From the NCBI GenBank assembly GCA_017559905.1, contig JAFYQF010000014.1, forward strand, positions 1 through 54,181: a stretch of 54,181 bases of DNA. Reading direction: 5' to 3'. Source of the DNA: a bacterium. GTDB taxonomy: Bacteria; Cyanobacteriota; Vampirovibrionia; Gastranaerophilales; Gastranaerophilaceae. The translations under genes were made by a program, and so were the position numbers. Shown here piece after piece: positions 1 to 54,181 of the stretch; the first letter of the stretch is position 1, and the number at the start of each line of letters is the position of its first letter. The notes under the pieces are model-generated. The model saw only the letters and a program-made list of their open reading frames with translations, searched no databases and was not told where the DNA came from.

Positions 1-1616
1 CTTCTTTCAACGTTTTTAGTTAATACGCCTTTAATACTATCGTATTCAGTTTGAAGTGCATTGTGTTCAGTGTCTAATTTTTTCAAATCAGTGTCATATT
101 GTTTATCTTTAACTTCGATTTCTTTTAAAGTTTTAGTGTATTCAACTTCAGCTCTAGCAATAGCTTCTTCGTCTTTTTGTTCAGTAATGTCTTGAGCATT
201 AGTAAATACAATAGAAGTCCACGCAGCGTTTCTAACACCTTGTTCAGAAGAAGAAATTTCTTTGAATTGAACTTGTTCTAATGTAATCAACCCGTTATCA
301 ATAGCGTATTTAAGGTATTCAGGGCTATTCATATCGCCATCTTTAAGTACAGCCCAGCTTTGTTCAGTAGTAGATTTAGAAGCCCAGCCAGCATCAGGGT
401 CGTAAGCACCGTTGTTTCCGAAACCACCTTTGAAGTTAGAAACACCATTCATTCTGTTCCAAAGGTTAACGTACCATTGAGCTTCATCAAGGTCTGTTGC
501 TACACGAACAGTTTTTGGTAGGTATTTTTGGATTTCTTCATTTTTAACTGGTTTAGCAGCTTCCCAAGCTGCAACGTCTGCATCATAAGCGTCTTGGTCA
601 TATTTTTCAACTTCTTCTTCACTTAATTGTTTTAAATCGTGCTCAACAAAATAGAAGAATTTTTGTAAATTTTCAGAAGAAGCTGCTTCGCCAGTGTCAC
701 TTGTAACAACATAATCTTCATGAACTTCCCATAATAAATCTACTGCTCTTTGGTACAATGTCATATTTGGATCAGACGTCGGACCTCCTACTGTTACTTG
801 GCTGCCATTTATCTCTGCGGTTTCTGTACCACCAGGAATAACATCGCCTGAACAATAGTTTTCTTTAAAAGCTTCGGTAATGGGGTCAAATTTTGCACGA
901 TTATGATTTGCAGTATTCCAGCACCAATCTTCGCCATGTTCACCACATGTATCTGCATATACTGTATATGTTTCTCCAGTACTTGTTGTATGTGTGCCAA
1001 CTCCAATTGCATCTGCAAGAACATGCATATAACAATTATTTCCGCCAATTGCGTTGCCTAAACAACCTCCTGCAGCACAAAAATCTTGGTAAATTTTATT
1101 GTTTCCAGTAGGAACGACTTCTGTTGTCCAGTATTTTTCATTATCAGGATCTGGTTTTTGAGCTTCCCATTCCGCTAATTTTTCTTCATAATCAGCTTCT
1201 GTATCCACCCAAACAGGGTTAACATATTCAATAGTAATCCCTTCGCCTATATCAGCTAAAACGCCGTATTTATCAAGGAATTCTTCAAGAGTGTTAGAAT
1301 TTTGGTAGTTAGCAGCATCTCTTTCAGAAACTAGAATTTGACCAGCAGAATTTATTAATCCATATTGGTTTTTCAATTCACCATATTGAGTAAGAGCTGC
1401 GCCAGATAAATCATAACTTACGATATCGCCGTTAGCGTTATAAGTGTTAAATAGGTATTGAGTTTTGTTTAAAGCTTTAACATATTTATCACTAGCTTGG
1501 TCAGTGGCGTTGGCTAAACGAATTTTTGCATTAGAAATGTTTTGAGATTGAAGTTCGATGTTGTTCAATCTTGCGGTGATAGTAAGCAATCTAGCTTGTG
1601 ATGCCGCCATTCCCAT
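1..1616 (-). CDS. MGMAASQAR-family putative exported structural protein (C-terminus beyond window)
   Basis: Open reading frame without stop from the ATG at 1616 to the window edge (538 codons seen). The N-terminus (MGMAASQARLLTITARLNN followed by an Asn/Gln-rich amphipathic helix) and the charged heptad-rich C-terminal part (from about residue 475) bracket a variable middle containing several Cys, Trp and Gly-rich stretches. Helical termini around a variable core recall flagellin/hook-type proteins exported without a Sec signal; that is inference, and no signal peptide is visible. Start supported by AAAGGA 12-17 nt upstream and by the same N-terminus in the gene at 54093. A sigma-28-like promoter lies upstream. 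Function unknown; the family is common in this lineage as hypothetical proteins, from memory. Confidence 0.8.
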   Translation of the reverse strand, partial: MGMAASQARLLTITARLNNIELQSQNISNAKIRLANATDQASDKYVKALNKTQYLFNTYNANGDIVSYDLSGAALTQYGELKNQYGLINSAGQILVSERDAANYQNSNTLEEFLDKYGVLADIGEGITIEYVNPVWVDTEADYEEKLAEWEAQKPDPDNEKYWTTEVVPTGNNKIYQDFCAAGGCLGNAIGGNNCYMHVLADAIGVGTHTTSTGETYTVYADTCGEHGEDWCWNTANHNRAKFDPITEAFKENYCSGDVIPGGTETAEINGSQVTVGGPTSDPNMTLYQRAVDLLWEVHEDYVVTSDTGEAASSENLQKFFYFVEHDLKQLSEEEVEKYDQDAYDADVAAWEAAKPVKNEEIQKYLPKTVRVATDLDEAQWYVNLWNRMNGVSNFKGGFGNNGAYDPDAGWASKSTTEQSWAVLKDGDMNSPEYLKYAIDNGLITLEQVQFKEISSSEQGVRNAAWTSIVFTNAQDITEQKDEEAIARAEVEYTKTLKEIEVKDKQYDTDLKKLDTEHNALQTEYDSIKGVLTKNVER

Positions 1617-1654: not shown

Positions 1655-1682
1655 ATTACGGCATTATGTAAAGGAAACTTTA
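1655..1682 (-). promoter_or_regulatory. Sigma-28/FliA-like promoter of the 1616 gene
   Basis: On the minus strand TAAAGTTT (1682-1675), 12 nt, then GCCGTAAT (1662-1655). Consensus for FliA is TAAAGTTT-N11-GCCGATAA. The paralogue at 54093 has TAAAGTTT-N12-TCCGATAT at the matching position. Predicted transcript start is about 30 nt before the ATG. Confidence 0.5.
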
Positions 1683-1698
1683 ATAAATATACTATGTT

Positions 1699-8151: not shown

Positions 8152-8288
8152 TATTTTAAATGTTGCCTTTTTGATAAAAATCATTAATCTAAATGATAAC
8201 AAAAGTAAGTTAGGCAGGTAGAATAGTTATGTAAAGTCGGATTAGTTATATCCAAGCTGGTCTGACTGGCATGACAAGGGGCGGAACT

Positions 8289-9047
8289 ATGTTTTCAGAA
8301 ATGATTCAAGGTTTATTGAACTCTGGCGGTAAGACTCAAGCTATGCAAAGATACGCACAGCTAAATAGCCGTGTTGCAAATTTTAAGAATGAGATTAACG
8401 GTCCGCAAATGCCTCAAAATGCAAACCCTATGGATACGTTGTATCCTGCTAATAGAGCTAATGTTCAATCTTTTGAAAATGTTTTGAAAGCTTCAACTAC
8501 TGATTTTGGTACTCTATTAAGAAGTAATCAGATTAAAAATGTTAATGCTAATATTGTTAAAAATACTCCAGTAGTGCCTTCTGCTCAAAGCTTTGAACAA
8601 TTGCCAAGCATTCAAGTGAAAGATATTCCAAATATTTCACAAGTGCAGTTGCAGCCAACTCAAACAAATCAACATCAGTTGTTGAATATGATTTCTCAAG
8701 TTTCACAAAAACACGGCGTTGATGAAAACTTGATAAAAGCTGTTATTAAACAGGAATCAGGTTTTAACCCAAGAGCTAAATCAAAAGCTGGTGCGATGGG
8801 TTTGATGCAATTGATGCCTGCTACAGCGGCTAGTTTAGGGGTTAAAGATCCTTATAATCCTGTGCAAAATGTTGAAGGTGGTGTAAGGTATTTGAAGTCT
8901 ATGTTGAATAGATATAATGGTAACACTATTTTAGCCCTTGCTGCTTATAATGCAGGTCCTGGTGCTGTGGATAAATATGACGGTGTTCCACCATATCGTG
9001 AAACCCAAAATTATGTTCGTAATATTTTGGCTAATTATATCCAATAA
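8289..9047 (+). CDS. Lytic transglycosylase, SLT domain, no Sec signal
   Basis: 252 residues. I start at the ATG at 8289 because AAGGGGCGG ends 5 nt before it; the in-frame ATG at 8271 has no site. The C-terminal half (residues about 130-252) is a Slt70-type goose-lysozyme-like domain: catalytic Glu156 in [12 protein letters not shown], then [13 protein letters not shown] and the [12 protein letters not shown] motif. It cleaves the MurNAc-GlcNAc bond to give 1,6-anhydro ends. The first 125 residues are Gln/Asn-rich and have no signal peptide or membrane helix, so the route to the periplasm is unclear; specialised muramidases of flagellar or type III systems are one precedent. Confidence 0.88.
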
Positions 9048-53994: not shown

Positions 53995-54012
53995 TGTAAC
54001 GAAATGTAACAT
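53995..54012. promoter_or_regulatory. Paired GTWAC operator-like direct repeats, second copy
   Basis: TGTAAC (53995-54000) and TGTAACAT (54005-54012), 10 bp apart, 16 nt upstream of the sigma-28-like -35 element. Same layout as at 1699-1717. Confidence 0.4.
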
Positions 54013-54028
54013 AAGAGCGATAAAAAAT

Positions 54029-54056
54029 TAAAGTTTTACTCAAAGTAATCCGATAT
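54029..54056 (+). promoter_or_regulatory. Sigma-28/FliA-like promoter of the 54093 gene
   Basis: TAAAGTTT (54029-54036), 12 nt, TCCGATAT (54049-54056). Close to the FliA/SigD consensus and parallel to the copy at 1655-1682. Confidence 0.55.
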
Positions 54057-54092
54057 ATATGACAAGGAAACGAAATTGAAAGGGAATTTGTC

Positions 54093-54181
54093 ATGGGAAT
54101 GGCAGCATCACAGGCTAGGTTCTTGGGACTGACAGCCAGAAAAACAAATACTGAATATGAAGGTCAACAGATTAACCAACA
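54093..54181 (+). CDS. MGMAASQAR-family putative exported structural protein (N-terminus only)
   Basis: Only the first 29 codons are in the window: MGMAASQARFLGLTARKTNT, then a Glu/Gln/Asn-rich helix. Ten of the first eleven residues match the gene starting at 1616 on the minus strand, and the rest keeps the same TAR-x-x-N-x-E spacing. GAAAGGG lies 8 nt before the ATG. See the 1-1616 entry for the family reasoning. Confidence 0.85.
   Translation, partial: MGMAASQARFLGLTARKTNTEYEGQQINQ

Follow-up and report, generated by a model that had tools for sequence, protein, structure and literature searches.

The 54,181-nucleotide stretch analyzed here (the window) is the whole of contig JAFYQF010000014.1 from the Gastranaerophilaceae assembly GCA_017559905.1, a genome of 1.84 Mb that is 99.96% complete. 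By homology, the nearest named relatives are Candidatus Gastranaerophilales MAGs, which makes the source a probable gut Melainabacterium. At each end of the window lies a gene of an unannotated protein family recognized by the characteristic start MG[LM][AS]ASQAR (the MGMAASQAR family), preceded by a sigma-28-type promoter and an operator-like direct repeat. These genes probably belong to a regulon of flagellin-like axial proteins that is governed by sigma-28 and an OmpR/PhoB-type operator and whose products use a second type III secretion system of flagellar descent (T3SS-2), one that persisted after flagellin was lost. Sequence analysis revealed the promoter with its operator and their conservation, a FliA gene, a second machine that co-occurs with the family, and a predicted axial-type fold. 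The features at the two ends are as follows.

3..1616, minus strand: MGMAASQAR family gene, 538 aa, truncated at its 3′ end by the contig boundary; both termini helical, middle variable
1656..1683, minus strand: sigma-28-type promoter, TTAAAGTTT, 12 nt, GCCGTAA
1699..1716, minus strand: operator-like direct repeat TGTTACAAATACGTTACA, boxes 11 bp apart
53995..54011, plus strand: operator-like direct repeat TGTAACGAAATGTAACA, boxes 10 bp apart
54028..54055, plus strand: sigma-28-type promoter, TTAAAGTTT (-35), 12 nt, TCCGATA (-10)
54093..54181, plus strand: MGMAASQAR family gene, only its 5′ end present before the contig boundary; N-terminal sequence MGMAASQARFLGLTARKTNTEYEGQQINQ; one of 12 paralogues in the genome

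An earlier note on this DNA had described the same upstream layout at both ends, and we confirmed it, with every distance within 1-2 nt of those it gave. On the plus strand, GTAAC boxes at 53996-54000 and 54006-54010 are followed by TAAAGTTT (54029-54036), 12 nt, TCCGATA (54049-54055), 37 nt, and the ATG at 54093. On the minus strand, the order is GTTAC at 1715-1711 and 1704-1700, TAAAGTTT (1682-1675), 12 nt, GCCGTAA (1662-1656), 39 nt, and the ATG at 1616. Two matches to the strict pattern TAAAGWWW-N12-[GT]CCG[AT] lie in the window, whereas 60 first-order Markov shuffles average 0.1, and TAAAGTTT-N13-CCG has 17 matches genome-wide against 2 for a reversed control pattern. The window genes resemble their closest paralogues in DNA sequence only as far as about 15-25 nt upstream of the ATG, short of the promoter, and the window upstream regions are therefore not recent duplicates. 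A weaker sigma-28-like match, TTAAAGTTT-N11-CCCGA at 1740-1718 on the minus strand, lies 102 nt upstream of the 1616 start and just upstream of the operator boxes.

The family has 12 members in the genome: 11 found by the N-terminal pattern and an MGLSASQAR member found behind a promoter match, a count that a profile search also returned. TTAAAG-N15-17-CG within 150 nt of the start was found at 11 of the 12 members and at 9 of 266 other open reading frames (ORFs; Fisher 1e-13). The control ORFs were drawn from stretches around motif matches rather than from the whole genome, which inflates the control count, so that this estimate of enrichment is conservative. Among family homologues in other genomes, the promoter precedes 22/24 in one set and 60/79 in another, with identical TTAAAG-N16-CCG spacing in 54 of these 60. 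The proposal of a regulon for the family was thus supported, as all members in the genome but one carry the promoter, with the reservation that about ten non-family genes have it too. Several of the nine promoter-bearing control genes look like true further regulon members: those for 377-aa, 447-aa, and 936-aa proteins, an HD-GYP-like protein, and small acidic proteins. The in-genome exception (C25:221504) and most of the other exceptions fall into one group, where a sigma-70-like element of the TTGACTTT type is conserved in place of the sigma-28 promoter. A TTGACTTT...TAATTA element of this kind, without a sigma-28 promoter, was observed at L066:5255-6505 and its homologues in L157, L166, L170, L171, L176, L179, L182, L184, and L186.

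We aligned 57 non-redundant upstream sequences on TTAAAG, which is invariant by this selection; information is high at TTAAAG and GCCG (81-98% per column for GCCG) and near zero between them. Further upstream, TTGTWACAAA recurs at about -34 to -25 and TTAACA at about -21 to -16 relative to TTAAAG, while the other columns are near-random. The period of the boxes is 11 bp in 23 rows and 10 bp in 12, and 20 rows have no pair under a strict box pattern; the paired box exceeds the genomic 99.9% score in 43 of the 57. The paired box noticed earlier at the two window genes recurs in this alignment as a direct repeat of 10-11 bp that is conserved in both sequence and position. The operator was found in 56/60 family upstream regions, compared with 6/22 flagellin genes of relatives and 12% of random windows.

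If transcription starts about 7 nt past the -10 element, the center of the repeat would lie near -61, and a site at about -61 is a usual place for an activator that contacts the polymerase alpha subunit. The repeat also resembles the HLR1 sites of Synechocystis, e.g., TAACAAAATTTAACAC, which are direct repeats of TWACA/TAACA (PMC6331805) and are bound in cyanobacteria by the OmpR-type regulator RpaB (PMC4361706). HLR1 is defined by (G/T)TTACA-like boxes repeated directly with a 10-bp period; the period in the family is mostly 11 bp. No OmpR-type regulator was recognized by eye within the window, and the genome was not searched for one.

Six sigma-70-family proteins were found in the genome, one of them a clear FliA/WhiG member (TIGR02479, 242 bits; cut-off 189.6) whose regions 2.4 and 4.2 are conserved with E. 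coli FliA. FliA exceeds the cut-off in 107 of the 118 genomes compared. The assignment of the promoter to the FliA/SigD consensus is supported by this fliA/sigD gene and by the -35 TAAA and the GCCGATAA-like -10. A sigma gene beside the family member at L006 was considered as a dedicated sigma factor and rejected, as it is RpoD-like by eye and the FliA orthologue lies elsewhere. The arrangement resembles the E. coli late flagellar regulon of tar and motA in its TAAA -35, its GCCG -10, and its proposed late axial substrates under a FliA-family sigma factor; it differs in a spacer to GCCG of 16 rather than 15, an upstream OmpR-type direct repeat, and a genome without flagellin. Chlamydia offers a second comparison: PMC10597470 describes sigma-28 as kept in a bacterium without flagella, and FlhA, FliF, and FliI paralogues exist there alongside the T3SS (PMC2830194). 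A FliA-type sigma factor is retained without motility in both cases, whereas here sigma-28 would act on genes for flagellin-like axial proteins, and rod proteins are retained in the companion machine. A literature search on Melainabacteria and FliA returned nothing.

Similarity among the family proteins extends over the first ~50 residues and the last ~75, with divergent middles in between. They were found in 98 of the 118 genomes, including this one, of which 51 have flagellin and 47 do not. Pfam and NCBIfam searches gave no family covering them, nor any Flagellin_N match, and the PDB held no convincing sequence relatives; membership in a known Pfam or NCBIfam family was therefore rejected. 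A structure model of a 333-aa homologue, built from a 50-sequence alignment, reached a predicted local distance difference test score (pLDDT) of 94.1 and has a helix at 2-47, a beta-rich middle, and a helix at 258-332. In Foldseek, the top 11 matches to this model were all flagellar filament entries, although their E-values, from 1.7e-3 to 0.07, are weak. The 27 best VIA-align matches were all flagellin, hook-associated, cap, hook, or rod proteins (Z 9.4 to 6.3), followed below rank 27 mostly by unrelated coiled coils and receptors. The low-confidence model of the 538-aa member from the window has the same terminal helices (2-50 and 474-537). These models are consistent with a fold of the flagellar axial type, in which paired N- and C-terminal helices surround an inserted middle. 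As in flagellin, FlgL, and FlgK, long terminal helices would flank a variable beta-rich middle; unlike those proteins, the family has no Flagellin_N or other Pfam match.

Flagellin (PF00669) was detected neither in this genome, where the positive controls were detected, nor in 12 genomes of the same genus. The genome nevertheless encodes a divergent flagellar-type export machine, T3SS-2, in three clusters: the first with FlhA, FliH, an unknown 348-aa protein, FliF, and FliE; the second with a FliM/N-like protein, FliO, FliP, FliQ, and FliR; and the third with FlgB, FlgC, and two FlgF/G-like proteins. The FliI gene lies immediately 3′ of a family gene. The NCBIfam models of flagellar equivalogs are the closest ones to FlhA, FliI, FliF, FlgB, and FlgC, although all five score under the cut-offs. 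The FlhA of this machine scores 669 bits against the FlhA model and 566 bits against SctV, under both cut-offs, and the rod proteins score 57.8 (FliE; cut-off 30), 56.7 (FlgB; 59.05), and 98.1 (FlgC; 102.1). Non-flagellar T3SSs are marked by the lack of FlgB, FlgC, and FliE, and those of the Myxo type lack a secretin (PMC3459982). Like injectisomes and Myxo-type systems, T3SS-2 has a flagellum-derived export apparatus without flagellin; it differs in having FlgB, FlgC, and FliE. No secretin was recognized beside the clusters read, and the genome was not searched for SctC. By the markers of PMC3459982, T3SS-2 as read from its gene content is neither a classical non-flagellar T3SS, given its FlgB, FlgC, and FliE, nor a working motility flagellum, given the lack of flagellin.

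Flagellated relatives possess this machine as a second set in addition to a normal flagellum. They have two FlhA clades and two FliP copies, and flagellin-less relatives one. FlhA of clade 1 (FHIPEP ~850-890 bits) belongs, in genome G041, to a canonical cluster with FliQ, FliR, FlhB, FlgK, and FlgL (these proteins were named by size and sequence, and FliP there is a Pfam match at the same place). FlhA of clade 2 (~700-737 bits) is 64-90% identical to the FlhA of our genome in families f1, f4, f6, and f8. Its operon, flgG/F-flgB-flgC-SLT-fliE-fliF-X-fliH-flhA-fliI, is complete or nearly so in four genomes, and this second set is contiguous in the relatives and stands apart from the canonical flagellar cluster. 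A single FliP was counted in 46 of the 47 flagellin-less family-bearing genomes, and at least two in 48 of the 51 flagellin-bearing ones. The window contributes one further feature.

8271..9047, plus strand: SLT transglycosylase, SLT 119 bits; the counterpart in L207 scores 108 bits and has the same N-terminal pattern MFS...

Since that counterpart sits between flgC and fliE in the T3SS-2 operon of relatives, the window gene, whose orthology was judged by eye and domain, probably encodes the peptidoglycan-piercing enzyme of T3SS-2.

Three proteins linked to the machine by position or sequence were also noted. The 348-aa protein (L051:2852-3898), which has no Pfam match, is conserved in the second machine where FliG would be expected, flanked by FliF and FliH. 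Two others, at L052:18396-19871 and L054:14864-16588, join unrelated N-termini to the C-terminal, cytoplasmic half of FlhA and lack the rest of it; by eye, the latter has its N-terminal domain in common with the 348-aa protein. These two are possible substrate adaptors.

No FliA-type signal was seen in front of the machine's own operons, which fits flagellar logic, with the machine made first and FliA-driven substrates later. In the sequence of events that we propose, the export machine would be transcribed without a sigma-28-type promoter, and FliA would then switch on the late substrates, as it does with flagellin in ordinary flagella. A response regulator at the repeat, ~60 bp upstream of the transcript start, would add an environmental signal. 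The family would be exported by T3SS-2, as distinct from a motility flagellum, and assembled on it or secreted through it. In this scheme we infer that FliA transcribes the family genes, that their products are exported and assembled, and which regulator acts and with what sign. The earlier note read the two sites as an alternative sigma factor acting with a dimeric regulator; the sigma-28 regulon is supported, but the tie to a second flagellar-type export system had been missed.

Several observations weigh against this proposal. T3SS-2 also occurs in families f10 and f11 without flagellin and without the MGMAASQAR family, and must therefore have other substrates. The Z-scores reach no more than moderate values (6.3-9.4) and may be inflated by the pairing of terminal helices; the good model is that of the 333-aa homologue, while the window's own 538-aa member is modeled poorly (pLDDT 56). 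The TAAA-N16-[GT]CCG spacing, nearly uniform here, exceeds that of E. coli tar and motA (N15) by 1 bp, and the flagellin genes of relatives are a weak positive control (9/22 under a looser regex). That the TTAAAG..CCG match and the paired boxes reflect chance or inherited flank similarity is nonetheless most improbable: TTAAAG is common in this AT-rich genome, but we rejected this source on the reversed control (17 matches against 2), the Fisher enrichment of 1e-13 at family genes, the uninformative columns between the conserved elements, and the paralogue similarity that stops before the promoter.

A sigma-28 regulon might also exist beside export genes that are the remains of a decaying flagellum, with the family in an unrelated role at the cell surface or in the cytoplasm. 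FliA regulons can include non-flagellar genes, and the partial set of MEL.A1 was read as ongoing genome reduction (PMC3787301), while several Gastranaerophilales were taken to have a subset that does not specify a functional flagellum (PMC4040986). We regard this as unlikely. The retained genes have a clade and an operon of their own, present in flagellated relatives in addition to the motility flagellum, the second-set FliP is kept in 46/47 flagellin-less family-bearing genomes, and the predicted fold of the family is that of flagellar axial proteins. A closer competitor holds that T3SS-2 and the family make a true second flagellum, with an external filament, rotating or not, of MGMAASQAR subunits. 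It is a narrower version of our preferred explanation, the two not being exclusive, and we consider it possible, though we would not bet on it. The resemblance to flagellin in architecture, in which the ends are conserved and the middle varies, speaks for it, as do the rod proteins FlgB/C/F/G and FliE, the FliM/N-like C-ring protein, and weak FliK-like and FlgE/F/G-like genes after the operon in one relative (G074). Against this, the FliG-like position is held by a protein without a Pfam FliG match; hook and cap proteins and MotA/B did not turn up, although no search was aimed at them; and a dozen paralogues of very different lengths do not suggest one polymer.

Returning to the regulon served by T3SS-2, we are inclined, on balance, to extend it to gut Melainabacteria at large (Gastranaerophilales and relatives). 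They would possess a second machine, ancient and derived from the flagellum but separate from the one for motility, for the export or assembly of a dozen flagellin-like paralogues controlled by sigma-28 and an OmpR/RpaB-type signal, and the "degenerate flagellum" of non-motile members would be an intact system of this kind. PMC3787301 lists two flhA genes in one genome and takes the residual set in another as flagellum loss. No mention of a second flagellar-type system was found in the literature covered on Melainabacteria and type III secretion, nor in the portions of PMC3787301 and PMC4040986 covered. The published partial or decaying flagella of gut Melainabacteria would accordingly be reinterpreted as a second conserved secretion or appendage system, giving a new and testable comparison point for the origin of non-motile type III systems from flagella. 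For a protein family that has so far gone unannotated, although each genome of this major uncultured gut lineage has about a dozen copies, a promoter code is now available as well.

Some observations on the family genes themselves remain. Both window ends (1-1616 and 54093-54181) and the end of contig C14 (L054:18074-19731) fall within family genes. The gene at 1616 (minus; P0001) and the C14 copy are near-identical over their N-terminal ~126 residues (96.5% DNA identity over 431 nt) and divergent in their middles, so that the assembly appears to break at paralogue repeats and recombination among family paralogues is likely. Directly 3′ of a family gene, L057:11355-12419 encodes a candidate co-exported protein of 354 aa, which matches EF-hand weakly and contains the metalloprotease-like motif HEAAH. 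Downstream of a sigma-70-type family member, L066:3546-3872 encodes a 108-aa, probably helical protein that resembles the terminal helices without the middle domain.
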